The notes under the pieces are model-generated. The model saw only the letters and a program-made list of their open reading frames with translations. It ran no database searches and had not been told where the DNA came from. A program made the translations under genes and the position numbers. A DNA stretch of 64,000 bases from Rhodococcus pseudokoreensis (GTDB taxonomy: Bacteria > Actinomycetota > Actinomycetes > Mycobacteriales > Mycobacteriaceae), in NCBI RefSeq assembly GCF_017068395.1, contig NZ_CP070619.1, positions 1,984,001-2,048,000 of the forward strand. The letters are read 5' to 3'. The stretch's first letter is position 1, and each line of letters opens with the position of its first letter. Of the stretch, positions 5,288-64,000 are shown one piece after another.

Positions 5288-5298
5288 GCCGGGACCGG

Positions 5299-6714
5299 TT
5301 ACACAGTCGAGGCCGACTGCGGTTGCAGGTATTCCCGGAAGGTGTCCGGACCGCGGGTACCCTCACGGGCACCGACCAGTACTCCGCCGACGATCGTCGC
5401 GCCGACGCCGCGCAGGATGACGGCACCCTCGGCGAGGTGCTGACGCTTCGTCTTGCCGTACCGGGCGACGATCAGCGCGCCGTCCGAGATCGCGGACAGG
5501 ACCGCGGAATCGGTGACCGGGAGCAGCGGGGCGCCGGCGAACACCACGTAGTCGAACCTGTCTCGCAGCGTCGCCACAACGGTTCTCGCGGTAGCCGAGC
5601 CGAGGAGCTCACTGGGATTCGCCGGCAGTGGACCGGACGGAAGCAGGGACAGGTGGTCGAACGTCGTGGTCCGGATCGCGTCCGCCAACTCGGCGTCGCC
5701 GCTCAGCACCGAACTCAGTCCGGCACCGGTAGCGCCCTGAATTCCCAGGGTCGACGCCACCAGCGGCTTCCTGAGGTCCGCTTCCACCACGCACACGGTC
5801 TGTCCCGCGGCCGCCAGGGCGACACCGAGGTTGAGCGCAGTCACATCCGAATCCTCACCCGGCGACGGACTCGCGACGACGATGACGTGCGGAGGGTTGG
5901 CCGCGTCGGCGAACTGCAGGTTGGTGCGTAACTGCCGGTACGCCGCCCCCAGCGGCGACGTGGCATCCGACATGTCCACGACGCCACGGGACAATTCGGT
6001 GTCGTCCGGTGTGATGCCGGTCAGGGGGGCACCGATCTGCCCCTCGACGGCGCGCCGGTCCTTCACCGTCGCGTCGAGCCAGTCGCGGATCACCGCGAGT
6101 GCGATGCCGAGCAGTAGACCGACCGCGAGTCCGAGAACCACGTTCCGGTTCTCCGACGTGGGCAGCGGATCCGTGGGAACCGTCGCGTTCTGTTCGATGG
6201 ACACGCGGGCCGGCTTCGGGTCCGGGTCCTCCATCGTGATCGAGTACCCCGACTCCGCGGTACCGGGATTCGCCAGGACCTGTGGCGGCTGAGCATCCTT
6301 GTTGGCCGCCGCGGCCTCGATGTCGGTCGCCGCCAGTTCGTCCATCATCGACACGAACTGCGCCGACAGCGTGTCGGCGATGTCGCGCGCCCGTTCCGGC
6401 GATGTGTCCTGCACCTTCACGTGCAGCAGCAGTTCGGGCACCGGGGTCGCCTTCACGTTCGCGACGAGTTCGGCCGGCGTCATGTCGAGACCGAGTTCGT
6501 CGATCGTCCGCTGCGCCAGCTTCTTCCCGGTCAGCAACTCGGCGTACGTGGCGAGGCGGGGCTGCGTGGACGAGACGTACAGCAATGTCGACGTCTGATA
6601 CACGGGCTTCGTGAACAACGTCGGAATGAAGGCGCCCAGCGTCACCACTACCACGGTGATCGCGACGAGCTTCCAGCGCTCCTTGACGATGCGCACATAG
6701 TCCTGGATGTCCAC
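5299..6714 (-). CDS. Wzz-type chain-length protein fused to a degenerate tyrosine-kinase domain
   Basis: 471 residues. The Wzz part has membrane segments near 17-36 and 190-208, with a periplasmic coiled region between, and a typical start (DIQDYVRIVKERWK). The cytoplasmic part (about 230-471) has the fold order of bacterial tyrosine autokinases (CpsD/Wzc), but its nucleotide-binding residues are lost. The Walker A region reads SPSPGEDSDVTALNLG, with no GK(S/T). Walker A-prime reads VCVVEADLRKP. The Walker B position is VVFAGAPLLPVTDSA, where active kinases have an Asp. There is no tyrosine cluster at the C-terminus. It may regulate polysaccharide length or export as a pseudokinase. The start is GTG 6714, directly after the TAA of the NRPS gene, so the two are co-transcribed. 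Confidence 0.85.
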   Translation of the reverse strand: MDIQDYVRIVKERWKLVAITVVVVTLGAFIPTLFTKPVYQTSTLLYVSSTQPRLATYAELLTGKKLAQRTIDELGLDMTPAELVANVKATPVPELLLHVKVQDTSPERARDIADTLSAQFVSMMDELAATDIEAAAANKDAQPPQVLANPGTAESGYSITMEDPDPKPARVSIEQNATVPTDPLPTSENRNVVLGLAVGLLLGIALAVIRDWLDATVKDRRAVEGQIGAPLTGITPDDTELSRGVVDMSDATSPLGAAYRQLRTNLQFADAANPPHVIVVASPSPGEDSDVTALNLGVALAAAGQTVCVVEADLRKPLVASTLGIQGATGAGLSSVLSGDAELADAIRTTTFDHLSLLPSGPLPANPSELLGSATARTVVATLRDRFDYVVFAGAPLLPVTDSAVLSAISDGALIVARYGKTKRQHLAEGAVILRGVGATIVGGVLVGAREGTRGPDTFREYLQPQSASTV

Positions 6715-49975: not shown

Positions 49976-50055
49976 ACCGCCACGCTAACAAGCAACGACG
50001 CGACGCGCGCGCTCCTATACTTCGTAGCGTTGAGCCCTAGTTGCGAGGGGTACCG

Positions 50056-51033
50056 ATGAGCGGATTCCTGCTACGACGTGCGCTCAATTACGTGGTGCTG
50101 TTGCTGCTGGCGTCGTTCCTGACGTTCAGCCTCACCTCGCTCACCTTCCGCCCGCTCGACAGCCTGGAGCAGCGCAACCCGCGGCCGCCGCAATCGGTGA
50201 TCGACGCGAAGGCGGCCGAACTGCACCTGGACGACCCGATCCCGGTGCGGTACGTGAACTGGCTGGGCGGCGTGGTGCACGGCGACTTCGGCACCACCAT
50301 CACGGGTCAGCCGGTGTCGGACGAGTTGGGCCGCCGGATCCTGGTGAGCATGCGATTGCTGATCCTCGGTTCCGTCATCGGGGCCGTGCTGGGGGTACTG
50401 ATCGGCGCCGCCGGTGCGATCCGGCAGTACAAGTTCAGCGACTACTTCAGCACCGTCGTGTCGCTGCTGATTCTCAGTGCGCCCGTGTTCCTCGTGGCGA
50501 CCCTGCTGAAATACGGTGCTCTCCAGATCAACTCGGCCACCGGCAGTCAGATCTTCCTGTACACCGGGGAATCCTCGGCCAGCACGATCACCGGGTTCTG
50601 GCCGCAGTTCGTCGACCGGGTGCAGCATCTCGCGCTGCCGACCATCGCGCTGGCGCTGGGCAGCATCGCCGGCTACAGCCGGTATCAACGCAACGCGATG
50701 CTCGACGTTCTGGGTAGCGACTTCATCCGGACCGCGCGGGCGAAGGGGCTGACCCGGCGGGCGGCACTGCTCAAGCACGGACTGCGGACGGCGCTGATCC
50801 CGATGGCGACGCTGTTCGCGTACGGGTTCGGGGCGCTGGTCGTCGGGGCCACGTTCACCGAGAAGATCTTCGGCTGGCACGGCATCGGCGAGTGGATCGT
50901 GATCGGTATCGACAATCAGGACACCAACATCGTCGTCGCGATCACGTCGTTCACCGGGCTGATCGTGCTGTTGTCGGGGCTGCTCTCGGACGTCGTGTAC
51001 GCGGCGCTGGACCCGAGGGTGCGTGTCGGGTGA
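50056..51033 (+). CDS. dppB: Peptide ABC transporter permease DppB/OppB
   Basis: 325 residues with six membrane segments. The first helix and a long external loop ([21 protein letters not shown]) are typical of DppB-type permeases. The EAA loop is [27 protein letters not shown], which docks on the ATPase. ATG 50056 follows GAGGGG at 6 bases. TATACT at 50016-50021 is a likely -10 for the operon. The stop overlaps the next permease start by 4 bases. Confidence 0.92.
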
Positions 51034-51956
51034 CCGAGATCCAGATCGCGTCCACCGACGCGGCGGTGTCGGCCCTCGGTCGCCGGACCCTGCTGTTCCG
51101 GCGGTTTCTCCGGAACAAACCCGCCATCGCCGGGGTGTGCGTCCTGCTGTTGCTGTTCGTCGCCAGTTTCGTCGGACCGTACCTGCTCCCCTACGACTAC
51201 CAGCAACTCGACTACACCGCGCTGCTGCAGCCGCCCAGTGCCGAACATCCGTTCGGCACCAACCAGATCGGGCAGGACGTGCTCGCGCAGACGCTGCGCG
51301 GGCTGCAGAAGTCGCTGATCATCGGCATCTGCGTCGCGCTCTTCTCCACCGCCATCGCCGCGCTCGTCGGTGCGCTGGCCGGGTATGTCGGCGGCTGGCC
51401 GGATCGGGTGATCATGTGGCTGGTCGATCTGCTGCTCGTCGTTCCCAGCTTCATCATCATCGCCGTGTTCACTCCCCGGCTGAAGTCGTCGAGTTCGATC
51501 GTCCTGCTGATCCTGCTGCTGGCGGTGTTCGGCTGGATGATCACCGCCCGGATGGTCCGCGGGATGACGCTGAGCCTGCGCGAGCGGGAGTTCGTGCAGG
51601 CCGCCCGGTACATGGGGGCACCGACGCACAAGATCATCACCAGTCACATCGTCCCGAACATCGCGTCGATCCTGATCATCGATGCGACCCTGAATGTCGG
51701 CGCCGCGATCCTCGCCGAGACCGGGCTCAGCTTCCTCGGGTTCGGCGTGCAGAAACCGGACATCTCACTCGGGTCGCTGATCGCCGACGGCACCGAATCC
51801 GCCCTCACCTATCCGTGGCTGTTCATGTTCGCGGGCGGGCTGCTGGTGATCACCGTGCTGTCGGCGAATCTGGTGGGCGACGGTCTCCGCGACGCGGTCG
51901 ACCCCACCTCCAAGCGGGCCCGCTCCCGCAAGAGCAGGAAAAAGGCGAAGCGGTGA
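51030..51956 (+). CDS. dppC: Peptide ABC transporter permease DppC/OppC
   Basis: 308 residues. The N-terminal cytoplasmic stretch ([19 protein letters not shown]) is followed by six membrane segments. [22 protein letters not shown] is the DppC signature, and [24 protein letters not shown] is the EAA loop. It forms the pore with the upstream DppB-like protein. GTG 51030 overlaps the DppB stop by 4 bases (GTGA), and its own stop overlaps the ATPase start in the same way. A basic C-terminus ([14 protein letters not shown]) is odd for the family and may touch the membrane surface. Confidence 0.92.
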
Positions 51957-53809
51957 CCGGGCAACCGCTGCTCGACATCGAGAACCTGCGGGTCAGCTTT
52001 CCCAGCGAGGAGGGCCGGATCGAGGCGGTCCGCGACATCAGCTACACCGTCTCCGACGGCGAGGTGCTCGCCATCGTCGGTGAGTCGGGTTCGGGCAAAT
52101 CGGTGGCGTCCCTCGCGGTGATGGGCCTGCTGCCCGAACACGCGCGTGTCACCGGATCCATCCGGTTGCAGGGCCGCGAGTTGCTGGGCATGGGTGACAA
52201 GGAACTGTCGGCGCTGCGTGGGAAGTCGGTCAGCATGGTGTTTCAGGACCCGCTGTCCGCGCTGACGCCGGTGTACCGGGTCGGCGACCAGATCGCCGAG
52301 GCGTTGCTCGTCCACGGCCGGGCAAGCAGCAAGAAGGACGCCGAGCAGCGCGCCGTCGACCTGCTCGACCTGGTCGGGATCCCCGATCCGGCGGTGCGCG
52401 CCAAGGCCTTTCCGCACGAGTTCTCCGGCGGCATGCGCCAGCGCGTCGTGATCGCCATCGCGATCGCGAACGATCCCGCGCTGATCATCTGCGACGAACC
52501 GACCACCGCCCTCGACGTGACCGTGCAGGCGCAGATCCTGAATCTACTGCGCAAGGCGCGTGATCTCACCGGCGCCGGCGTCGCGATGATCACCCACGAC
52601 ATGGGCATCGCGGCGACCCTCGCCGACCGCGTGGTGGTGATGTACGCGGGCCGGGTGGTGGAGTCCGCGCCGGTGCGGGAACTGTTCGCCGAACCCCGAA
52701 TGCCCTACACCGCAGGACTACTTGTGTCCGTTCCGCGGATGGACGCGCCGATCCGCAGCCGCCTGGTCTCGATCGCCGGCGCCCCGCCCGCCCTGCATTC
52801 GCTGCCACCGGGTTGCACGTTCGCACCGCGATGCCCACTCGCCGTGGACGCCTGCCTGCTCGCCGAACCGGAACTCGTCGCGACCGGGCCGGCCCACCGG
52901 GCGGCGTGCATCCGCGTCGACGAGAGTGGCACCCGCGACCTGTTCACGGCGTATCGGCAGGATCAGCCGGCCCCCGCCCCCACTGCGCAGACGGCACCCG
53001 AGCACCGGGTGGTGCTGCAGGTGACCGATCTGGTGAAGACGTATCCGTTCACCAGTGGTCTGGTGTTCCGCCGCAAGCGCGGTGAGATCCGGGCGGTCGA
53101 CGGCATCACGTTCGACATCCGGGCGGGTCACACACTGGCGCTGGTGGGCGAATCCGGCTCCGGCAAATCGACGACGTTGACGCAGGTCCTCGACCTGTCC
53201 GCGCCGGAATCCGGGTCGATCGAGGTGCTGGGTGCCGACGTCGCGGCGCTGAGCGCCCATCGCAGGCGCGCCCTCCGGCGGAAGATGGCCGTCGTCTTCC
53301 AGGATCCGACGGCGTCCCTGGACCCCCGGCTGCCGGTGTTCGACGTGCTCGCCGAGCCGCTCCGGCTGGACGGGCGCGGTCGCGAGGAGATCGGCCGCCG
53401 GGTACCGGAACTGCTCGACCTGGTCGGGCTGCGACACGAGCACGCCGACCGGTATCCGGCCGACTTCTCGGGCGGCCAGAAGCAGCGGATCAGCATCGCC
53501 CGGGCGCTCGCCCTCGATCCGGAACTGCTGTTCCTGGACGAACCGGTGTCTTCGCTCGACGTCTCCATCCAGGCCGGGGTGCTCAACCTGCTGCGCGACC
53601 TGCAGGAGCAGCGGGGCATGTCGTACCTGTTCGTCTCCCACGACCTGTCGGTGGTCCGCAACATCGCGCACGACGTCGCGGTGATGTACCGGGGCAGGAT
53701 CGTCGAGTCGGGGGCCGCGCAGACGATTTTCGAGGATCCGCAGCACGAGTACACCCGGGCACTGCTCGCGGCAATCCCCGTTCCGGATCCGACCGATTTG
53801 GCACACTAG
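51953..53809 (+). CDS. Fused peptide ABC transporter ATPase (DppD-DppF)
   Basis: 618 residues with two full ABC domains. The first (about 7-265) has [15 protein letters not shown], the signature [10 protein letters not shown] and DEPTTALDV, then the peptide-type C-terminal extension with [17 protein letters not shown], whose cysteines can hold an iron-sulfur cluster. The second (about 350-610) has [25 protein letters not shown] and DEPVSSLDV. It drives the importer made with the two permeases. Fusion of the two ATPases is common in actinobacteria, so it is not broken. GTG 51953 overlaps the DppC stop by 4 bases; the substrate-binding gene follows 30 bases later. Confidence 0.94.
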
Positions 53810-53839
53810 GGTCAGCGAACTTCGAGGAAGGGCACATCC

Positions 53840-55522
53840 ATGAGGATTCGTTCGGCGCGCACCCGCCTCGCGGTATCGTTCCTGGCCGTCGGCCTCGTTC
53901 TCGCCGGCTGCGGGGGTTCGGACACCGGCGCCGGGACCGGATCCGGGTCGCTCGGCACCACCAACGACATCAATCCGCACGACCCCAGCGAACTGCGCGA
54001 CGGCGGAAACCTGCGGTTGGCGTTGTCGGGTTTCCCCCCGAACTTCAACACGCTGTCCAACGACGGCAACGATTCCGAGATCGGCGGCATGTTGAAGCCG
54101 ATGATGCCCCGCGCGTTCGGCACCGACGCGTCGGGGGCCCTGTCGGTGAACCACGACTACTTCGTCGACGTCGCGCTCACCGGCACCGATCCGCAGCAGG
54201 TCACGTACACGATCGACCCGAAGGCGGTGTGGTCGGACGGCACCCCGATCACGTGGGAGGACATCCAGTCTCAGGCAGCGGCGCTCAGCGGGAAGAACAA
54301 GGAATTCCTGATCGCGAACACGTCCGGGTTCGAGCGGGTGGATCGGGTCGAGCGCGGGGTCGACGACCGTCAGGCGGTGATCACGTTCGCCGAGCCGTAC
54401 GCCGAATGGCGGGGCCAGTTCGCGGGCAATTCGATGCTCTACCCGAAATCGGTCACCGCGACCCCCGCGGCGTTCAATACGAGCCTGCGCGACGGGATCT
54501 CGGTGACGTCGGGACCGTTCCAGATCGCGTCGATCGACCGGGCGCAGAACCGGATCACGTTGGGCCGCAACCCCGCGTGGTGGGGTAACACCCCGAAACT
54601 CGACACCATCACGTACAGCGTGCTCGACGACTCCGCGCGCATTCCCGCCCTGCAGAACAACGAGATCGACGCGTCCGGGCTGGGCACTATCGACGAGGTG
54701 AAGACGGCGGAGGGATCGGACGGCATCGCGATCCGCCGGGCGCCGGGAACCCAGTTCTCGCACATCACGTTCAACGGCGCGGACGGATCGATCCTCGCCG
54801 ATCCGGAATTGCGGGTGGCGCTGTCCAAGGGCATCGACCGGCAGGGCATCGCGACCGCGATCCAGAACGGTCTGGTCGACGACCCGAAGCCGCTGAACAA
54901 CCACGTCTACCTCAGCGGTCAGCAGGGCTACCAGGACAACAGCGCGGCCGTCGCCTACGACCCGGAGGAGGCCGCGCGGCGGCTCGACGAACTGGGCTGG
55001 AAACTCAACGGCGAGTTCCGGGAGAAGGACGGGCGCCGACTCGAGATCCGCGACGTGATGTACCAATCGACCACCTGGGTCCAGATCGCGCAGATCGTTC
55101 AGCAGAACCTCGCGCAGATCGGCGCCAAACTGAACATCGACACCCGCGGCGGCACCGGATTCTTCACCGACGTCATCCAGCCCGGCGACTTCGACCTCGC
55201 CCAATTCTCCTGGGTGGGTGATCCGTTCCCGCTCAGCGGCCTCCCGCAGATCTACGCGTACAACCCCGACGACCTGCAGGGCAACTACGGCCGGATCGGC
55301 TCGCCCGAACTGAACGCGCTGATCGAGCGGACCATCTCGGAACTCGACCCGCAGAAGGCGATCGAACTGGCCAACGAGGTCGACACCGAGGTGTTCGAGG
55401 AGGGGTTCTCGCTGCCGCTGATGCAGGCGCCGGGCAACGTCGCCGTGCGCGACAACCTGGCGAACTTCGGCGCCGCCGGTCTCGCGTCCTACGACTACAC
55501 CAAGATCGGCTTCCTGAATTAG
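53840..55522 (+). CDS. dppA: Peptide ABC transporter substrate-binding lipoprotein (SBP family 5)
   Basis: 560 residues. The signal MRIRSARTRLAVSFLAVGL ends in a lipobox, LAGCGGSD. The bilobal SBP5 body has WSDGTPITWEDIQSQAAAL, RNPAWWGNTPKLDTITYSV and DPELRVALSKGIDRQGIA, all near-universal in DppA/OppA proteins. It catches short peptides outside the membrane and hands them to the permeases. It is the fourth gene of the transporter operon (GAGGAAGGG before ATG 53840). Actinobacterial relatives can bind other oligopeptides or haem; specificity is not visible. Confidence 0.92.
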   Translation: MRIRSARTRLAVSFLAVGLVLAGCGGSDTGAGTGSGSLGTTNDINPHDPSELRDGGNLRLALSGFPPNFNTLSNDGNDSEIGGMLKPMMPRAFGTDASGALSVNHDYFVDVALTGTDPQQVTYTIDPKAVWSDGTPITWEDIQSQAAALSGKNKEFLIANTSGFERVDRVERGVDDRQAVITFAEPYAEWRGQFAGNSMLYPKSVTATPAAFNTSLRDGISVTSGPFQIASIDRAQNRITLGRNPAWWGNTPKLDTITYSVLDDSARIPALQNNEIDASGLGTIDEVKTAEGSDGIAIRRAPGTQFSHITFNGADGSILADPELRVALSKGIDRQGIATAIQNGLVDDPKPLNNHVYLSGQQGYQDNSAAVAYDPEEAARRLDELGWKLNGEFREKDGRRLEIRDVMYQSTTWVQIAQIVQQNLAQIGAKLNIDTRGGTGFFTDVIQPGDFDLAQFSWVGDPFPLSGLPQIYAYNPDDLQGNYGRIGSPELNALIERTISELDPQKAIELANEVDTEVFEEGFSLPLMQAPGNVAVRDNLANFGAAGLASYDYTKIGFLN

Positions 55523-55535
55523 CGGGTTCGCGGCC

Positions 55536-56177
55536 GTGCGCTACCCGGTGACCGTCGCCGTGGGCGCACTGCTGGTATGCGGCGGGTTCGCCGTGGTCGC
55601 CGACGCCGATCAACTCAGCGCACTCGTCGTCGTGGCGGCGGCGGTGCTCGGGGTCACCGGCTACACCTGGTTCGCGGCCACCCGCGCGGCATCGGGGCCG
55701 GGACGGCAGGCCACGGTGCACCGAGTTCGCCAGCAGCACCGGCTGACCAGCAGGTCCTGGATCGAGGTCCGTGAGGAACCGGGTTCACGGTGGATTCCGG
55801 TGTTCTTCGATCCCGCCCTGATCACCCTGCCGACCCCGACCGCGGCGATGGTGCACGACGCGGGCCGCCGCACCGTGGTGGTGTGGGACGGCCGTCGGCT
55901 GCTCCCGTCCGGGCAGGCGCGTCGTTCGGAACCGCCCGGCCGGTTGATCGACAACCCGTCGCGCCCGGATCCGGACGGTCCGGTGCGCGCCCGAGTGGCG
56001 GTCCGTCCCGCCCGCAGGCTCGTCCTCGACGCTCAGTTCGCGGTGGCGGCGCCGTTCGCCGGGGCACTGTGGGTGTACGTCGCGGGCGGCGGACTTCCGG
56101 CATTCGCCGGCGCGACGTGCGTGGCCGCGGCCGTCGCCGTGTGGTTGGCGGCGATCCGGGGCTCAGACCCCAGCTGA
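55536..56177 (+). CDS. Unidentified membrane protein of the peptide-importer operon
   Basis: 213 residues. Two helices at the N-terminus (about 2-20 and 27-46) and two at the C-terminus (about 165-205) enclose a soluble domain with RSWIEVREEPGSRWIPVFFDPALIT and TVVVWDGRRLLPSG. No catalytic motif is visible. GTG 55536 follows the transporter lipoprotein by 13 bases. It may assist the importer or be an independent gene; I do not recognise the family. Confidence 0.65.
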   Translation: MRYPVTVAVGALLVCGGFAVVADADQLSALVVVAAAVLGVTGYTWFAATRAASGPGRQATVHRVRQQHRLTSRSWIEVREEPGSRWIPVFFDPALITLPTPTAAMVHDAGRRTVVVWDGRRLLPSGQARRSEPPGRLIDNPSRPDPDGPVRARVAVRPARRLVLDAQFAVAAPFAGALWVYVAGGGLPAFAGATCVAAAVAVWLAAIRGSDPS

Positions 56178-56183
56178 GGCGGG

Positions 56184-56552
56184 CTACGACATGGTGACGC
56201 CCGCGCTGACGAAGCACGGCAACAGCCCGGCGATCTCACTCAGCACCGGCCCGAACCCGACGGCGGCCGGTACCGGGTCGTTGACGAACGCGACACCCCG
56301 GAACCCGGTGGTGAGGTTCGTGAACTGCACGACGGCGCCGTTCCACTGCGCGAACGGCGCGGCGGTGGTGTACCGGATCCGGTCGGGTCCGACCCGTTCG
56401 GCATTGAACGTGAGCCAGGCTCCGGGGGCGCACGTCGACATCGAGCCGGGGACGAACGGCGCGGCGGAGGCGGCACCGGGCACTGCGAACGACAGTGCGC
56501 CCGCGACGGCGATCACTGCGCCCAGCCGACCCAGCACTTTTCGAGTAGACAT
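56184..56552 (-). CDS. Secreted protein of unknown function
   Basis: 122 residues. A Sec signal peptide (LGRLGAVIAVAGALSFAVPGAASA, cut before APFVPG) leaves a mature part of about 90 residues with two Cys (STCAPGAWLTF and LLPCFVSAG) that can form a disulfide. A beta-rich Asn/Phe/Gly pattern (WNGAVVQFTNLTTGFRGVAFVN) suggests a small immunoglobulin-like or barrel domain. It resembles the many short exported proteins of Rhodococcus and Nocardia. It converges on the membrane protein gene. Confidence 0.7.
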   Translation of the reverse strand: MSTRKVLGRLGAVIAVAGALSFAVPGAASAAPFVPGSMSTCAPGAWLTFNAERVGPDRIRYTTAAPFAQWNGAVVQFTNLTTGFRGVAFVNDPVPAAVGFGPVLSEIAGLLPCFVSAGVTMS

Positions 56553-56662
56553 CGGAATTCCTTTCGGGGCGCGCCAATCCGTCTCCCCGAGTACGGCGGA
56601 ACCGCGTCACTGAGTGTGAATACCAGGTCCGAGAATTATATCTCCGCAGGTACCTCCGGCCG

Positions 56663-57926
56663 CTAGTCACCGACGTCCAATTCGAGGCGGTCCTCGTCGA
56701 ACCGGACCACTCGAACGGTGCGGGTGCCGCCCGCCGCCGTGGTCATCTCGAGCCGCCCGTCGTCGTCCGCGGACACCCACGTTCCCTCCCGTGGTTCGTC
56801 GGCGTCGCCCCGGCCGATCGCCCAGTCGACGAACGAGCCGTCCGGCCGGAATTCGATACCGCCGCGCCCTCGCGCCCGCGGGAAGTCGAATCCGGCGGGC
56901 CGGTACACCCGAACACCGTCGTGGTCCTCTTCGAAGGAATGCCGCCAGCGTCCCGCGGCGCCCGGGGCGACCAGTGCGGAGACGGCCGGACTCGCTGCCT
57001 GCCCGGTCCACAGCGCCTTCCGGACGCCGTCCAGGCACGCCCCCATCCGGGCGCCCTGGCCCTTGGTGAACATCACCATCCCCGCGTCGTCCGTGTAGTC
57101 CATGTAATCCATGAACAGGTCGCCGTGCGGGCCGTTCCCGCAACTGATGTGCGGGAATCGCGGCATCCCGACGTTCTGCCCGCCCTGATTGGGGGTGTCG
57201 GCGACCTCGTCGGAGCCCCGGCACCCGGTGCCGTCGTCGCCCCAGATGTGAAAGAGGTTGAGGTAGTGCCCGATCTCGTGGGTCGCGGTGCGCCCGAGGT
57301 TGAACGGGGCCCGCGCGGTGCCCGTCGTGCCGAACGCGGTGTACGTGATCACGACGCCGTCGGTGGCGACGGGGCCGCCGGGGAACTGCGCGTAGCCGAG
57401 CAGACCACCGCCGAGCGCGCAGACCCAGATGTTGAGGTATCTCTGCGTCGGCCACGGGTCGGCGCCGCCGGTCTCCGCGGATTTCACGCCGTCGTTCTGG
57501 TCGAACGAGTCGATTTCGGTTGTGGTGCGGGTGATTCCGTTCGACGGCCGGCCGTCCGGGTCGGTGTCGGCGAGGAAGAATTCGACTCGGGCGTCGCCGA
57601 TCAGCGGCTCGAACACGGGCGGAACGGTGTCGATGTCGTCGTTGGCGGCCCGGAAGTCCTTGTTGAGCACCGCGATCTGGCTCTCGATCTGCGCGTCGGA
57701 GATGTTCTGCGCCGCGGGTCTTCGACACGACGTGCACGACCACCGGAATCCGTATGGGCCCGCGGGCGGCGATCGACTGCAGCGGTTCCAGTTCGATGCT
57801 CTGGTTTTCGATTTCCGAGCGGGCGATGCGGTACGACTCCGACTCGGTCAACAGCCGGCGGTGCACGTCCATCGCCCCGCACGTGCGGCGGGCCGGCAGT
57901 TCGACCGCTGATTCGTTGGTGCTCAT
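56663..57926 (-). pseudogene. Frameshifted M43 (pappalysin-like) zinc metalloprotease
   Basis: The N-terminal 68 or so residues read from ATG 57926 ([30 protein letters not shown]) in one frame. The catalytic part continues in another ([20 protein letters not shown]) to the stop at 56663. The frames join with one base gained or two lost at about 57721-57728. The active site is [15 protein letters not shown]: the zinc HExxH and third His are there, but the Gly of HExxHxxGxxH is Asn. The Met-turn is [16 protein letters not shown]. The C-terminal 80 residues form an extra beta domain ([20 protein letters not shown]). It is likely the last gene of the cluster. Real decay or an indel error are both possible. 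Confidence 0.75.
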
Positions 57927-57948
57927 GACGTCGGGTTCCCTTCCGGTT

Positions 57949-59835
57949 TCAGAGGATCAGGTCTTGGGGACGGATCAGTTCGCGGGGCAGGCTGCTCGCC
58001 TCGATCCCTTCGAGCGGGTCGGCCGCGATGTAGGGGTCCAGGCCCAGACCGGTCAACTGAGCGATCCGCCGGACGGGTACCTGGAATGTGCGGTACGCAC
58101 CGTAGGAGAACGCCTCCTCCCCCTCGGCGAACTCGTCGAGCAGGGCGGCCTGGCTGAGCAGGTATCCGGTGACCGAGAGGCTGCCGTCCGGCTTCACCAT
58201 GGCCACCGCCTTCCAGAACTGACGTGGCAGGGCCACACCGCGATACTCCGGGTCGTCGGAGGCGAGTACGGGTCCGGTCACGACGGTGACGGCGAGATCG
58301 GCGTTGTCCGCGTTCTTCAGGACATAGTCCTCGAGTCCCAGCCACAGCGTCTGGCCCGCGTTGAAACTGTGATGTTGCGGAGTGCAATTGGTGAAGTGGA
58401 ACGTGTCGTCGTTCGCCGCCTTCGCCAGCGGTCCCCAGGCCGGGTCGAGTCGTCGCACGAGGTGCCCGCGGTCGAGCGGATTGTCGCGGTACACGTCCTC
58501 TCCCGTCTGCTGATCGGCGGGAAGCCGGGGGTCGAGAATCCATCTGTCGCTGTCGCGCCGGGGGCTCTGCGACTGCCGTCCGTCGATGTTCACGGCGGTG
58601 AACAGCGCCAGCGCCCGCTCGCGGTGCATCACGACGCTGAAGTGGTGATACTTCAATTCCGGCGACGCCACCGCAGGCACCTCGGGTCGCGGAAGTGGTA
58701 GCGGCACCCGCAGGAAGTTCTCGTCGTACCCACCCCGGGTGCCGTAGTTCGGATCGATCGAGATCGCTTCCGGCGCGGCGGCCGGTGACTCGACGGATCC
58801 GAGACGCACCGTGATCTCGAGGGGAACCCGGACGGTCACCTCCCGTTCGTGTTCGAGCACCGGGCGCACGGCCTGTGCCGTTCGCTCGGCGCCGAGGACC
58901 TCGTCGACGAGGTCCCGCGACTGCGGGGTCAGGTTCTGCGCACGCACGTATTCGAGTATGCGGCTGATTCGCACCCCCTCGTTGAGGACTCCGCCGAACT
59001 CGGTGTGCTGCGGCGCCCGCACACTCGCGTGATGCAGGGCGACCACCTCCCACTGGTCGTTGAACACCGGTGATCCCGAGGATCCGGGTTCGGTGTCGGC
59101 GGAGTAGTGCAGGAACCGTTCGGGAATGTCGACGATGCGGTTCTCCCGCAGCGCGATCTGCTTCTTCTCGCCGCGGGGATGCTGCACGATGGTCACGAAC
59201 TCACCGATGACGGCCTTGCCCTCCGCCTGGATCAGCGGGCTGAAGCCGAACTGCGCGAGCGTCCCGGGCTCGGCCCCGACCGCGACCAGCGCGAAATCGC
59301 GGTCCCGGTCGGCGAGGTAGAACCGCCCCGGATCCAGCGGAAACATCTGCACGGGACGCGGTTTGCCGTCGACGCCGTCCTGGTAGTCGAATTCGATCAC
59401 GCTGCTGCGGGCGGTGTCGGCGTCCGGCAGCACGTGGTGGTTGGTGAGCAGCAGGGCAGGTGAGACGAGGAAGCCGGTGCCGTAGCCCTGCAGGGTTCCC
59501 CGTGCGTCGCGGATGTTCACCCGTCCGATGGACCGGGCGGCGGCGACGCCGGCATCGAGGTAGCGGGCGCCGACGAAATCGGCTGTGCCCAGGATCTTCT
59601 CGAGAACCCTGGTGTCCGACTCCCCGTCACTCTCGCCGTAGTAGCGACCGAGCCGGTCCACCCGCTTCGCAATCCGTTCGGGCGTATCCGCCGCGGCAAC
59701 ACCGCCGGGACCGTTGAGTGCGTCCACGTGCTCGCCACGCTGGGGTGCCCGTTCCCGTGCACGTAGTTCTGCCGCATCGTGTTGTCGTTGCCGTTCCGCC
59801 TCGAACGTTCCCGTGGGCGTGTCGATGGTGGTCAT
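57949..59835 (-). CDS. Fusion of a trypsin-like serine protease and a DRGH non-specific endonuclease
   Basis: 628 residues. The N-terminal 75 are charged and helical. A trypsin-like domain (about 90-310) has GTGFLVSPALLLTNHHVLPD with the His, DRDFALVAVG with the Asp, and EPGSSGSPVFNDQWEVVALHH with the Ser. After a linker, a NUC1 endonuclease domain (about 395-600) has YHHFSVVMHRERALALF, the DRGHLVRRLDP motif with the metal-binding/catalytic His, and HFTNCTPQHHSFN. No signal peptide is seen, so it may act inside the cell. It starts at ATG 59835, 79 bases after the CHAT gene, and ends 22 bases before the M43 gene. Zymogen-like control by the protease is a guess. Confidence 0.9.
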   Translation of the reverse strand: MTTIDTPTGTFEAERQRQHDAAELRARERAPQRGEHVDALNGPGGVAAADTPERIAKRVDRLGRYYGESDGESDTRVLEKILGTADFVGARYLDAGVAAARSIGRVNIRDARGTLQGYGTGFLVSPALLLTNHHVLPDADTARSSVIEFDYQDGVDGKPRPVQMFPLDPGRFYLADRDRDFALVAVGAEPGTLAQFGFSPLIQAEGKAVIGEFVTIVQHPRGEKKQIALRENRIVDIPERFLHYSADTEPGSSGSPVFNDQWEVVALHHASVRAPQHTEFGGVLNEGVRISRILEYVRAQNLTPQSRDLVDEVLGAERTAQAVRPVLEHEREVTVRVPLEITVRLGSVESPAAAPEAISIDPNYGTRGGYDENFLRVPLPLPRPEVPAVASPELKYHHFSVVMHRERALALFTAVNIDGRQSQSPRRDSDRWILDPRLPADQQTGEDVYRDNPLDRGHLVRRLDPAWGPLAKAANDDTFHFTNCTPQHHSFNAGQTLWLGLEDYVLKNADNADLAVTVVTGPVLASDDPEYRGVALPRQFWKAVAMVKPDGSLSVTGYLLSQAALLDEFAEGEEAFSYGAYRTFQVPVRRIAQLTGLGLDPYIAADPLEGIEASSLPRELIRPQDLIL

Positions 59836-59914
59836 GGCTCGGTCCTCACGTAGGCGGCGGCTCGGTGTGCTTGCCAGCCTTCTCGCCGCGGCCCGACCGG
59901 TCATGCGTAGCCGA

Positions 59915-62872
59915 CTACTCGTTTCTCGGTCCGGCCGCGGCGCCTGCGGGTTCGTATTTTTCGACGCCGTTCCGGACGACCCGCCGGATGCGGGTGCCGT
60001 CGGCCACCAGGGCGTCGAGCAACGGAACCGCCAGTTCCGGGCGGATCGGGATTTCCGCGAGCAACTGCCCGAGTTCGAGCGTGCCCGACCCGAGGGCTCC
60101 GACGATGACCTTCCGCCGCGCGCTGTCCAGTGCCGCCTCGACGTCGAGTTGCTTCGCGGTGTCACCCCGCGCCGTCGGTATCGGTGTCGCCGTCCCGACC
60201 AGCAGCGCCCGGACGTCCCGCGCGGCCAGGTCGCGGTCGGTCGCCCACACCAGCATCGCCGCGACGGCCACGTACAGCGCCGCGAAGGTCGTGCCCTCCA
60301 TCTCCGGTCGGTCGACGAGCCGCTCGCACGTCGTCCCGGTGATCGTCCGCGGCGCGTAGACGTCGGGTTTGCCTGCGTCGGGGAAGTACGGGGTTTCGTG
60401 GGTGAGGGTGCCGTCGTCCTCGACGGCACCGACGGCGAACGCGTCCGCACTCCACGCGGGATACGCCGGCTCGTCCGAGTGGTCGCCCGAGACGATCACG
60501 AGTTTTCCGTCGCCGACCAGGCGCGCGATGACGGTGTTCTGCGCGTCCGACGGGACCGCGTTGCCGTAGTCGAACACCAGGATGTCCGCGTCGGCGCGGG
60601 CCGCGTCCTCCAGCCACCGGCAGACGTCGCGCTCGGACGGGACGCCGTGCGCGAACGCCAGCTCCTGAGGCAGGAGTTCGGCCAGCGCCGATTCGCCCTG
60701 CCCCGTCTCACCGGCCACCACCCGGCCCGGAACGTCGTGCCGGATGGCGCACTGCGTGACGGCCACCGCGATTTCCTCACGGCGACCGGCGGTGAACGGT
60801 CCCGCTACCGCCAACCGCAGTGCGCGCCGCACCGGCGCCGCGGCGGCCGCCTCTGCCTCGGGTGCCCCGGCGCCGGCGCCGAAGAAGTCGGACCCGTTCG
60901 TCACCGGCGGTGCCGGCTTCGCGGCGCCGACACCGAGTTGCCGGACGAGCAACGGCAGGTCCCGCGGTTCGAACGTGCCGTTCTGGGCGGCGAGATCCGC
61001 CAGTTGCTCCCACAGTTCCAGGTGCCGCACGTCGGTGTAGAGCCGGGAGAGGTCCTGCTCCGGGTAGCGCGTCAGCGTGGGCAGATTGCGCCGGATCCAT
61101 TGCCACACTTCGGGCCAGGACAGGGCGTCGAGGCGGATCGTGCGCACTTCGGCGGCGCGGAGCGAGTCGGTCAGTCCGGCGAGTTCCCCGGTGGTCGCCA
61201 CGGCGAGCCGCGCGTCGCCTCGACGTTGGGTCAGCAGAACCAGGGCGGCGAGGAGGTCCGAGGCGCCGGGGGCGTCGCCGACAAGCAGGTCTCCGTCGTC
61301 GACGACGATCGCCGTGGGGACTTCGGTGAGGTCGTCGAGTAGTCGCTCCCACCAGTCACCGGCGCTGAGCCTGCCCTGCCGGGCGGTGCGCACCCCGGCG
61401 TCGTCCAACAGCTCGGCGACGAGCCGGGACAGTTCGTGGAGCGGGTCAGGTTTCGCGAGCAGCCGTTTCGTGCTGACGAACAGGTTCGCGATCTGCGGTT
61501 CGAGCTCTTCGAGCACGCGGTCCAGGAGGGCGGTCTTTCCGGTGGAGGGCATCCCCACCACGTGGAGCAACCGGGCGGACGTCCGCCCGGACAGCACGTC
61601 CACTCCCTCCCGCAACTCCGCGAGGCGGGAGATGAAGCGGAGTTCGCCCTGGCGGATCCCGATCCGCCGCGAGATCCGGCGGGGCGACGGTTCCGGCCGG
61701 GCCTTCGCGTCCGGGTCGATGATCGCGCCGGGTTCGCTCCCGCCGACGAACAGGCAGGGCACCGCCCAGTCGAGCAGAGGGTCGCCGCTGTTCTCGTCGC
61801 CGTTGATGGCGAGCCGCGCCAGCCGCAACGCCTCGGCGACGGGCTGGCCGGCGGTCAGTGCCTCGTAGAAGAAGCGCGTCAGCAGGCGCTCCGTCCGGAA
61901 CGGCAGCACCGCCTGCATGCCGATCACCATCGGGCACGCATCACGCACACAGATGTCGGCCGACGACAGCGGCCCCGGCCACGGGTCGTCGTCGGTGGCC
62001 CCGTCCGGCGCGCGGGCGGTCTCGCAGCCCGCGAACACCGCAAGCCGGAGGTCCGGCAGTTGCTGCAACAGCAACGCGAACTCCTGGCTCGGCAGGAGCA
62101 TCCCGCGCCCGTTGCGCCGCTCCACCTTCAGACCGTCCGGATTGGCGTGCCCGAGATAGTGGAAGAGGTGAAACCCTCTTCTCTGCATGCCCATTCGACT
62201 GCGGAGACGTTCGACGGACGGGCGGTCCTCGACCACCACCCGGAGCAGACCACGATCGACCAGGGGCCGCAGTTCCGCCAGCAAGCTGCGTTTCTCGGCA
62301 TACAGGTCGAACGGGGCCTCGGAATCTTCCGGGCCCTCCCGCAGCGGACTCGACATCACCAGCAGGAGATTGAGCGGCGGCACGATCGGCGTCTGCCGGA
62401 TCGGGTACGTGCGCGACCGTCCGGACCGCACCACGTGGACGTCGCGCGCCATGGCGAGGAACTGGTCGGGGCGTTGCGGATCCAGCAGCAACTCCCACGG
62501 CCAGGCGCACACTTCCTGTGGCGCAGCGAGGATCCGCACGAGCAGCTGAGTTCCCGCCCGCCCGGCGAGTCCCCGGCTCTGTTGCAGCAGCGTTTCGACC
62601 TCGGGGATCCCGAACACCAGATCCGTCAGCACTTTCCCGACGTCGAGCGCGTGGGCCGCGGCGTCGGTGCGCGCGTGCCGGACGGTGTCGGTCAGCCACC
62701 CGGACGGCGCGTCGATCGTCTTTCCTGTGACGTCGTTCGGCAGTTTCCATTCCGGGATCTCTCGCCGCACCGCGAACACGGAGCCCATCCAGGACTGCGC
62801 CGACAGCCAGACGTGGTCGCCCGCCCGGAGGACGCTGATCTCCAGTTCCTCGAAACCGGTTGCGGGTCTCAT
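59915..62872 (-). CDS. CHAT peptidase - P-loop ATPase - degenerate subtilase-like protein
   Basis: 985 residues. The CHAT (caspase-like) domain (about 130-380) has the catalytic His in FHYLGHANPDG (about 241) and Cys283 in VFAGCETARA. The P-loop domain (about 410-700) has VGMPSTGKTALL at 438-448 and a Walker B-like AIVVDDGDLL; its companion motifs suggest a STAND-like switch. An Ala-rich linker is followed by a subtilisin-like region (about 710-890), where YPAWSADAFAVGAVEDDG and GTTFAALYVAVAAMLV match the S8 strand and the active GTSMA motif, but the Ser is Thr and the Asp and His positions are unclear. The C-terminus (about 900-985) may be a winged helix. It should be a triggered protease. 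Start ATG 62872, 12 bases after the LCAT-like stop. Confidence 0.87.
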   Translation of the reverse strand: MRPATGFEELEISVLRAGDHVWLSAQSWMGSVFAVRREIPEWKLPNDVTGKTIDAPSGWLTDTVRHARTDAAAHALDVGKVLTDLVFGIPEVETLLQQSRGLAGRAGTQLLVRILAAPQEVCAWPWELLLDPQRPDQFLAMARDVHVVRSGRSRTYPIRQTPIVPPLNLLLVMSSPLREGPEDSEAPFDLYAEKRSLLAELRPLVDRGLLRVVVEDRPSVERLRSRMGMQRRGFHLFHYLGHANPDGLKVERRNGRGMLLPSQEFALLLQQLPDLRLAVFAGCETARAPDGATDDDPWPGPLSSADICVRDACPMVIGMQAVLPFRTERLLTRFFYEALTAGQPVAEALRLARLAINGDENSGDPLLDWAVPCLFVGGSEPGAIIDPDAKARPEPSPRRISRRIGIRQGELRFISRLAELREGVDVLSGRTSARLLHVVGMPSTGKTALLDRVLEELEPQIANLFVSTKRLLAKPDPLHELSRLVAELLDDAGVRTARQGRLSAGDWWERLLDDLTEVPTAIVVDDGDLLVGDAPGASDLLAALVLLTQRRGDARLAVATTGELAGLTDSLRAAEVRTIRLDALSWPEVWQWIRRNLPTLTRYPEQDLSRLYTDVRHLELWEQLADLAAQNGTFEPRDLPLLVRQLGVGAAKPAPPVTNGSDFFGAGAGAPEAEAAAAAPVRRALRLAVAGPFTAGRREEIAVAVTQCAIRHDVPGRVVAGETGQGESALAELLPQELAFAHGVPSERDVCRWLEDAARADADILVFDYGNAVPSDAQNTVIARLVGDGKLVIVSGDHSDEPAYPAWSADAFAVGAVEDDGTLTHETPYFPDAGKPDVYAPRTITGTTCERLVDRPEMEGTTFAALYVAVAAMLVWATDRDLAARDVRALLVGTATPIPTARGDTAKQLDVEAALDSARRKVIVGALGSGTLELGQLLAEIPIRPELAVPLLDALVADGTRIRRVVRNGVEKYEPAGAAAGPRNE

Positions 62873-62884
62873 GCTTCCGCGCTC

Positions 62885-64000
62885 CTAGACGTCCACGGAC
62901 CGGGCGATCTCGTCGAGGTCGACCACACTCGCGACGTCGGTGACCGGGTGCACCCCGGGCGCGCGCACGGTGATCCGGTAGTCCTGGGCGGGTAATCCGT
63001 CGAGGACGGCCTGCTGCCAGCCGTCGACGGCCGGCGACAACGGGTGCTGCCTGCTCGGACCGCCTGCGAGGGGCTCGACCGACGCGACCAGCCGAGCACC
63101 CCCTGCACCGGTGCGCGCGCGGATCACCAGCGGCTCGGCGGTCGTCACGTCGTCGACCTCCAGCGCCACCGATTCGTTCACCGCCGGAAACACGTTCGGG
63201 GGCGCGAGAACTGCGGTGGTCAGGATCCCGCCCACATGGTCGAGCACCGGGTCGTCGTTCTGCAGGGACCCGTGCCGCTGGCTGAAGAACGCTGCGTTCT
63301 TCCATCCCGTCATGAGCTCGTGCGGGGTGGCCGACAGCTTCGGCACGGTGCCGTCCCCGCCGATCTCCCCGGGCCCGCGGACGGTCATCGGCTCGACCTT
63401 CGTCCCGGCGAGCCGGGCGGCCCACTTGGTGGGCTGGAAGTCGCCGATCACCGGACGGATGTCGTAGCCCTCGGGTCCCGACTTCAGCCGCGCGTCGACG
63501 GTGTCGCGCAGGTCCCGGTGCAGGCGCACCGCCGCCCCCATCCGGCCGGCGTCGAGACCCGTCCCCGACCAGTCGAGCGCCTTGTCGTCGAGTGCCCGCC
63601 ACGACCCGTCGTCGCCCGCCATGCACCGATACGACGGCAGCAACTGGTAGGCGGACGTGAACGACCCGATCAGCGCACCCAGGTCCACGGTGAACGGGCC
63701 CCAGCCCTTGCGGAATCCGTTGACGAGGAAGTCGAGCGCATTGACCGAACCCGAGTACGGGGTGCCGAACGTGACGAGGGTGCGGGTGTCACGCCAGCCG
63801 TCCAGCAGTTCGAGGAACAGTCGGGCGACGATGCCGCCCATGGAATGGCACACCAGCACCAGCTTGGCGTCCGCGTTGCCCGACTTCTCGCGCCACCGTC
63901 CCAGCCAGTCGTGGGATCGCCGGGCCAGCGTGCGGGCCGCCACCCGGTTGTCGCGCCGCCAGTCGTAGGGCAGTTCGAAATAGTTGTCGCCGGGAACGGC
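62885..64000 (-). CDS. LCAT/PGAP1-like alpha/beta-hydrolase (5' end outside window)
   Basis: The open frame extends past base 64000; about 370 C-terminal residues are visible. YFELPYDWRRDNRVAAR and LVLVCHSMGGIVARLFLELL (lid and nucleophile Ser) match LCAT-like/PGAP1-like acyl hydrolases. The second triad members are probably in GEIGGDGTVPKLSATPHE and SQRHGSLQND. The last 100 residues (VFPAVNESVALEVDD onward) form an additional beta domain. It is expected to cleave acyl bonds in lipids or lipoproteins. No export signal can be judged because the start is missing. It is upstream of the CHAT gene by 12 bases, so it probably belongs to the same operon. Confidence 0.8.
   Translation of the reverse strand, partial: AVPGDNYFELPYDWRRDNRVAARTLARRSHDWLGRWREKSGNADAKLVLVCHSMGGIVARLFLELLDGWRDTRTLVTFGTPYSGSVNALDFLVNGFRKGWGPFTVDLGALIGSFTSAYQLLPSYRCMAGDDGSWRALDDKALDWSGTGLDAGRMGAAVRLHRDLRDTVDARLKSGPEGYDIRPVIGDFQPTKWAARLAGTKVEPMTVRGPGEIGGDGTVPKLSATPHELMTGWKNAAFFSQRHGSLQNDDPVLDHVGGILTTAVLAPPNVFPAVNESVALEVDDVTTAEPLVIRARTGAGGARLVASVEPLAGGPSRQHPLSPAVDGWQQAVLDGLPAQDYRITVRAPGVHPVTDVASVVDLDEIARSVDV

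Follow-up and report, generated by a model that had tools for sequence, protein, structure and literature searches.

A conserved CHAT protease-ATPase, lipase and trypsin-endonuclease operon of Rhodococcus as a candidate module of protease-switched self-destruction

Introduction

Why should a lipase-like hydrolase, a CHAT peptidase joined to an ATPase, a trypsin-endonuclease fusion and an M43 metalloprotease be encoded side by side, and on what would such a set of enzymes act? The question is raised by the end of a 64,000-nucleotide stretch (hereafter the window) of contig NZ_CP070619.1 of Rhodococcus pseudokoreensis (G000:C6:1984001-2048000; genome of 9.87 Mb in six contigs), where the four genes lie in a row on the minus strand. 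An earlier note made from the letters of the window had guessed at a cell-death or defence function. On balance, we favour the reading that the operon encodes a chromosomal nucleoside triphosphate (NTP)-gated protease-effector module that would kill or lyse its own cell, abortive infection and programmed lysis both being compatible with the data as its purpose. The argument rests on the conservation of the operon, on the proteins that stand beside relatives of its CHAT protein and on the motifs of that protein.

The four genes form a conserved unit in Rhodococcus

In 5' to 3' direction the minus strand carries genes for a TetR-type regulator, dcd, an LCAT-type alpha/beta-hydrolase (lipase-like), the CHAT-AAA-S8-like protein, the trypsin-endonuclease and the M43 metalloprotease. 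The CHAT gene occupies 59915..62872 (985 aa) and the trypsin-endonuclease gene 57949..59835 (628 aa; the 629-aa search queries include one extra upstream codon). The lipase gene (62885..64000, with its stop at 62885) is truncated by the window end; in the extended contig it begins at the window-equivalent position 64285 (L002:10285) with the conserved start MKDVVV and encodes 466 aa. The M43 gene is frameshifted, its N-terminal part (57717..57926, ATG at 57926) and its catalytic part (56663..57670) being in different frames. The gaps of 12, 79 and 22 bases (lipase/CHAT, CHAT/trypsin-endonuclease and trypsin-endonuclease/M43) that the earlier note had given for four minus-strand genes agree with these coordinates, and each of its four domain calls is supported by Pfam; of its M43 gene, the metalloprotease domain stands and the intact gene does not. 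It had also expected the cluster to continue past the window, where in fact only the start of the lipase runs over the end. Directly upstream of the lipase lies dcd (dCTP deaminase; named by eye from the sequence, without a family search), followed, outside the window, by the TetR-type regulator.

The cluster is real and no chance grouping, because the CHAT gene recurs within the genus, the gene order is kept and all four genes are under purifying selection. A full-length CHAT protein is found in 10 of 28 Rhodococcus genomes (this one included); among 33 other relatives in the same search there was none, the only match being a partial one of 18 bits (G041). Among named organisms, the nearest relatives of the operon genes are from Rhodococcus, the CHAT protein being 96% identical to that of R. 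koreensis. The lipase-CHAT-trypsin-endonuclease-M43 order is kept in eight of the 10 carriers, counting this genome with its broken M43 gene; in one locus (L022) the trypsin-endonuclease match is split over two frames. The ratio of non-synonymous to synonymous substitution rates (dN/dS) is 0.11-0.19 for the four genes (three pairs; catalytic part only for M43) versus 0.01-0.03 for dcd. In the two most distant carriers (R. tibetensis and one relative, about 74% identity) the place of M43 is taken by a 1061-aa protein resembling peptidoglycan hydrolases, with M23, Rv2525c-type, Amidase_2 and DUF4185 domains. AAA-LuxR (MalT-like) genes of STAND type lie on both sides of the operon in this lineage (L020:3390-6020, L020:15961-18528; L021:13343-15973); the downstream one of L021 is frame-broken, and the upstream one of L020, the sole one scanned with Pfam, has a MalT-type TPR match below the cut-off.

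The operon directly adjoins dcd in seven of the 10 carriers; in the two most distant ones a regulator gene intervenes and the distance is about 3 kb, and in the tenth the contig ends before dcd. Since dcd is present in 27 of the 28 genomes and the operon in 10, the operon counts as accessory and its neighbour dcd as core. Ten of the 18 operon-free genomes were taken for an empty-site comparison, and one of them (G005, L065) keeps both flanks, 94-96% identical to those of a carrier (L018) and 87-91% to those of the window's genome. Here everything between the lipase start and the last M43 codons is missing, and a TnpB-like gene (Cas12f1-like TNB domain; L065:7663-9579, minus strand) stands in its place. 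Because short scars of the lipase leader and of M43 remain beside this gene, the case suggests loss of the unit as a whole, a single instance among the 10 genomes. Nine others retain dcd, accompanied in one case by tetR and its outer neighbour, but none gave a match to the downstream flank.

A 122-aa protein with a signal-peptide-like N-terminus is encoded downstream of M43 (56184..56552, minus strand); it is not counted in the unit because it is still present in the operon-lacking locus L065. An Rfam scan of 50000-64000 gave no match at the gathering threshold. The promoter and terminator scan was uninformative, with no sigma-70-like sites and with terminators below the shuffle mean. Clusters for oligopeptide/dipeptide-type ABC transporters flank the operon on both sides (window 50041-55522; L002:16256-19846), and their solute-binding proteins, one of which was scanned with Pfam, are distantly related (23% identity).

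The CHAT gene is preceded by a lipase or by an MBL-fold protein

A scan of 84,980 GTDB species genomes with two exact peptide patterns, which passes over relatives that lack the patterns, gave 30 loci. Nineteen of these (L023-L041) encode a full-length CHAT relative; the remaining 11 (L042-L052), with a 25-32% match over the CHAT part only, were set aside from the neighbourhood count, as were the partial match in G041 and a CHAT-only match in G385. The 19 loci are from Rhodococcus, Nocardia, Kibdelosporangium, Streptomyces, one uncultured member of the Verrucomicrobiota and four betaproteobacteria, hence three phyla, and several of the Rhodococcus loci are on the same contigs as in the genus search. 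Outside these clades the system is rare: with the query genome counted in each case, it was found in three of 397 genomes order-wide (one of them the CHAT-only G385), in two of 200 of the family of the L040 genome and in two of 150 of the Kibdelosporangium family.

The gene directly upstream of CHAT encodes an LCAT lipase at 12 of the 19 loci, a metallo-beta-lactamase (MBL)-fold protein at seven and both at none (at L035 only the end of the MBL-fold gene is on the contig). Conserved co-occurrence, whose absence would by the terms of the earlier note have refuted its reading, is therefore present, with the same order in eight of 10 carriers and a lipase or MBL partner at 19 of 19 loci. In a tree built from 20 CHAT proteins (the 19 and that of the window) the two partner types separate in a single split, with support of 100/100, subject to a program warning about the meeting of long branches and to an in-frame stop in the L035 sequence. 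On the same tree, the CHAT protein of L037, whose assembly bears the title Rhodococcus rhodnii NRRL B-16535, is almost identical to that of Kibdelosporangium aridum, and the assembly is probably mislabelled. A 1593-aa translation with LCAT, AAA and S8 parts (P0179) was considered as a lipase-CHAT fusion and rejected, its joining and middle parts reading as frameshifted sequence; it was used only as one further case of lipase-CHAT adjacency.

The MBL-fold partners belong to a family of defence nucleases. The four of the seven that were scanned with PADLOC (those of L034, L036, L038 and L040) cover most of the length of LmuA, at 195-223 bits, and have weaker matches to Avs1a and RTasMBL. Six ordinary MBL proteins encoded in the window's genome served as controls (two of an initial eight were wrong frames); one reached 10.4 bits and five had no reported match. 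A relative of the L034 MBL protein occurs in 40 plasmid records, four of which were opened. In three the MBL gene comes after genes for a caspase and a hypothetical protein, as in the order of Canu, and matches LmuA with 210-238 bits; in the fourth it follows the gene of an 861-aa protein without a PADLOC match. According to the main text of PMC12799240, such MBL nucleases are proenzymes activated by a partner protease, as demonstrated in vitro for Hachiman and Canu and by cut-site mutants and immunoblots for AVAST. The loci with a CHAT relative behind the MBL gene (L034, L035, L036 and L038-L041; Streptomyces, Verrucomicrobiota and betaproteobacteria) are likely to be a CHAT version of the gated-nuclease systems. 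Since their MBL partners belong to the protease-activated pro-nuclease family, CHAT sits in the position of the activating protease and the lipase of the window in that of the pro-nuclease; by analogy, the lipase too may be opened by cleavage.

Other neighbours vary. Genes for NB-ARC-TPR proteins precede the lipase gene in L030 and L037 and lie at a greater distance in L031; the Endonuclease_NS protein of L032, which has a homologue in L033, shows no trypsin match; an Amidase_2-DUF4185 protein follows CHAT in L028. In L034 the MBL gene is preceded by a patatin gene, to which a stretch of L038 is related. In Streptomyces (L036:7766-13946) genes for an S8 peptidase, the MBL protein, CHAT and a Tle1-type phospholipase stand in a row, so that phospholipase and MBL occur together. 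An Agrobacterium plasmid (L078:1904-11503) carries caspase and TIR genes, a Canu-like caspase-hypothetical-MBL triplet and then separate, adjacent genes for CHAT and an S8 peptidase.

The CHAT protein combines a peptidase, an ATPase and a subtilase-like region

The 985-aa protein begins with the CHAT peptidase region (about residues 5-385; Pfam CHAT 8e-17), which has the separase/Craspase fold; fold comparisons covered the CHAT and the S8 halves of the protein. It is followed by an AAA/STAND-like ATPase region (about residues 405-645; Pfam AAA_22 1e-6, above the cut-off), a subtilase-like region (about residues 683-916; Pfam Peptidase_S8 4e-5) and a C-terminal, winged-helix-like helix-helix-helix-hairpin (about residues 920-975, read by eye from the secondary structure). 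In an alignment with 28 proteins chosen among 108 matches, the CHAT residues H238, H242 and C283 are conserved in 29 of 29 sequences, as are K446 of Walker A and D525 of Walker B.

The subtilase part looks, from its sequence, like a pseudo-enzyme, in keeping with the 'degenerate subtilase' of the earlier note. The position of the catalytic Ser is Thr in the window protein and Ser in 14 of the 29 sequences, and residues 646-780 of the window protein lack both the D[STA]G and the HG[TS] motif, which occur in 10 of 29 and 0 of 29 aligned sequences, respectively. The columns assigned to the subtilase Asp and His, which are at or beyond the alignment edge and not firmly alignable, hold Asp in 0 of 29 and His in 0 of 29; a His two residues off the assigned column (H712) is shared by 21 of 29.

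The lipase, the trypsin-endonuclease and the M43 protein

The lipase (Pfam LCAT 3e-10 and PGAP1) has the nucleophile motif C-H-S-M-G-G as well as GGDGTVP and RHGSL. In the 628-aa protein a Trypsin_2 domain (3e-29) with the motifs TNHHVL, RDFALVAV and PGSSGSPVF is fused to a DNA/RNA non-specific endonuclease of NucA/EndoG type (Endonuclease_NS 9e-48) with DRGH, and the length of the inter-domain region varies strongly among 23 aligned sequences. An AlphaFold model of this protein was poor (pLDDT 46) and no conclusion on gating of the nuclease was drawn from it. In a metagenome-assembled Rhodococcus genome (L024) the corresponding gene (4571-6290) is split over two frames and residues 75-125 have no match, so that it is either a damaged copy or wrongly assembled.

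The catalytic part of M43 matches Peptidase_M43 with 1e-13. In all eight other Rhodococcus loci read, the gene is kept in one frame through the HExxH motif, and in one of these, R. tukisamuensis (L027), it is interrupted later, near the C-terminus. The break in the present genome may be a true mutation or an assembly error.

Discussion

If the module does destroy its own cell, the domain types and the neighbours suggest the following course. At rest the CHAT-AAA-pseudosubtilase protein would be inactive, with the STAND/Orc1-like ATPase as the switch, and the pseudo-subtilase and C-terminal domain may act in sensing, in autoinhibition or in binding of the substrate. On a trigger such as phage or another stress, the protein would assemble and its caspase-like active site, whose residues are invariant, would be freed. 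CHAT would then cleave and thereby activate its operon partners: in the sister clade the observed partner is a member of the pro-nuclease family, and here the LCAT-type lipase stands in the same position, with the trypsin-nuclease after it. The freed lipase may attack the membrane and the trypsin-NucA protein proteins and nucleic acid, and a fourth enzyme (M43, or a peptidoglycan hydrolase in other species) could complete the destruction. More tentatively, the CHAT-ATPase family may have exchanged its zymogen, a gated DNase of the CanC/Avs1a kind in one clade and a gated lipase in the other, with a multi-enzyme demolition set built around the lipase; this we regard as possible rather than probable.

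Were this so, the lipase would be, as far as we know, the first protease-activated pro-lipase immune effector and the operon would parallel, in bacteria, an executioner cascade. Lipases would then join nucleases among the immune effectors activated by proteolysis, and a single death programme of Gram-positive bacteria would connect CHAT proteases with trypsin-NucA proteins and wall hydrolases. The partner rule yields a testable prediction, that one protease switch can drive chemically different killers, and the pair CHAT-MBL and CHAT-lipase offers a clean comparison for the evolution of substrate choice in caspase-like proteases.

Several observations weigh against a self-killing module as just described. 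The cleavage-activation of the lipase has no direct support here, and the hydrophobic stretch at the lipase start (2.1) is close to those of secreted controls (2.5 and 2.75), although it may be the first beta strand. The M43 gene is broken in this genome and is therefore not essential to whatever function is kept. The nuclease of the Nocardia loci lacks a trypsin match, and neither the Kibdelosporangium loci nor L028 gave any match to a trypsin-nuclease. In Caulobacter, the nuclease residues of the trypsin-endonuclease LypC are dispensable for lysis (PMC13236601), so the nuclease may not be the killer here. No CHAT relative was found among PLSDB plasmids at 1e-30, and in Rhodococcus the operon is a stable locus at dcd. 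A PADLOC comparison of 120 neighbours at 11 loci (rough gene calls, no background control) gave no clear defence island; among the 25 of 48 families shown, those with most members were mad3 (4), mad8 (3) and several methyltransferase models (2 each), and we take the comparison as weak evidence either way. The cell-death or defence guess of the earlier note gains support from the MBL pro-nuclease neighbours of relatives and from the LypC-type architecture, but the proximity to defence islands that it had proposed to look for gave no clear signal.

Among other explanations, regulated lysis for ends unrelated to phage, by the same CHAT-switch chemistry, fares best, although we consider it rather doubtful. 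The operon would then release gene-transfer or prophage particles or serve developmental or nutrient-linked autolysis. LypABC, which includes a trypsin-endonuclease, releases gene transfer agents and lies outside defence islands (PMC13236601); the stable chromosomal place without a clear defence island and the peptidoglycan hydrolases in the downstream slot of R. tibetensis, one relative and L028 point the same way. The defence-type pro-nuclease in the sister clade speaks against it, and the patchy presence (10 of 28 in the genus, rare outside) with loss as a unit looks like that of an accessory trait.

A housekeeping role in lipid or protein turnover tied to dcd and nucleotide metabolism, with an incidental look of defence, would account for the position beside or near dcd in nine carriers and for the purifying selection. 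It is unlikely, given that dcd is nearly universal in the genus and the operon is not, that a close relative has lost the operon cleanly, and that no dcd was matched in the stretches of R. tukisamuensis, Rhodococcus sp. RD6.2 and the 12 loci L030-L041.

Still less probable is a set of hydrolases, secreted or released by lysis, that would serve to feed on other cells or compete with them. Lipase, trypsin, nuclease, M43 and wall hydrolase are typical exo-enzyme types and the lipase start is hydrophobic, but by simple hydropathy five of the six proteins (CHAT, trypsin-endonuclease, M43 as the intact L026 copy and two wall hydrolases) have no signal-like start, against two clear controls, and the tightly coupled partner is a CHAT-ATPase of intracellular type. 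That four unrelated genes are adjacent by chance is hardly credible: the fourth gene does vary, yet order and tight gaps are conserved across species and phyla, one genome has lost the unit whole, and the partner rule (lipase-CHAT at 12 and MBL-CHAT at seven of 19 loci) already refutes it for these two pairs.

Comparison with known systems

The earlier note knew of no described system with this exact set. None was found in open PMC titles and abstract starts, a scope outside which lie supplements and most subscription papers; the note had, however, left close relatives unnamed, namely System 3, Canu and LypABC. As described, none of the gated pro-nuclease systems, System 3, LypABC or the CRISPR-linked CHAT effectors has the set of the window, and for each at least one feature was not observed in the window. 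Protease-switched self-destruction is known, and a lipase in the pro-nuclease's place was not found described in this form.

TPR-CHAT/Csx29 (Craspase) and SAVED-CHAT, effectors of type III CRISPR systems, have the CHAT protease fold in common with the window protein. Their sensor is a TPR or SAVED domain; by Pfam the window protein has neither, and AAA and S8 were found instead, so that an ATPase holds the place of the sensor. As in STAND/Orc1-like switch ATPases, Walker A and B are present (29 of 29).

LypABC is a CARD-NLR-like system of Caulobacter that serves the release of gene transfer agents, and the peptidase of LypC is needed for programmed cell lysis (PMC13236601). LypC, compared here by description only, joins a trypsin-like peptidase to an endonuclease by a linker, like the 628-aa protein of the window. 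LypA joins a protease to an ATPase domain, as does the window CHAT protein, but has CARD and trypsin instead of CHAT; LypB is an ATPase with TPR-like repeats, and the three-gene operon is without lipase or M43. No CARD profile matched the window operon proteins, the sensitivity of such profiles for bacterial CARDs being uncertain. Among the genes read beside the window operon there is no separate NLR-like AAA-TPR gene; AAA-TPR-type genes are present in the Kibdelosporangium loci, and MalT/LuxR-like ones in R. tibetensis and a relative.

The NucA-trypsin conflict systems predicted by Kaur and co-workers ('System 3'; PMC7159879, section 32) likewise have trypsin and a NucA-type endonuclease fused in one protein, and in that section the companions are S8 peptidases, STAND NTPases and peptidoglycan-attacking domains, as here. 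They are mostly alphaproteobacterial, and the words 'CHAT' and 'lipase' are absent from that text. A subset recruits by EAD1 domains, for which the window operon gave no Pfam match, it being uncertain whether the library has an EAD1 model.

In Canu, HamMAB, AVAST, Lamassu and DRT, according to the main text of PMC12799240, a caspase-clan or trypsin protease and an effector enzyme are likewise encoded in one operon; the whole words CHAT, subtilase and lipase are absent from that main text, the supplement being outside this check. The Canu-type protease is described there as a MALT1-like caspase with an Ig-like fold, and that of the window has CHAT with its own ATPase and a pseudo-subtilase. Among the proteins of the window operon there is no MBL nuclease, and an LCAT lipase stands in that position. 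The operon does share with these systems a protease of the caspase family, CHAT being a caspase relative with H238, H242 and C283 conserved in every aligned sequence, and in seven of 19 relatives of the window CHAT protein a member of the MBL pro-nuclease family itself is encoded directly upstream.

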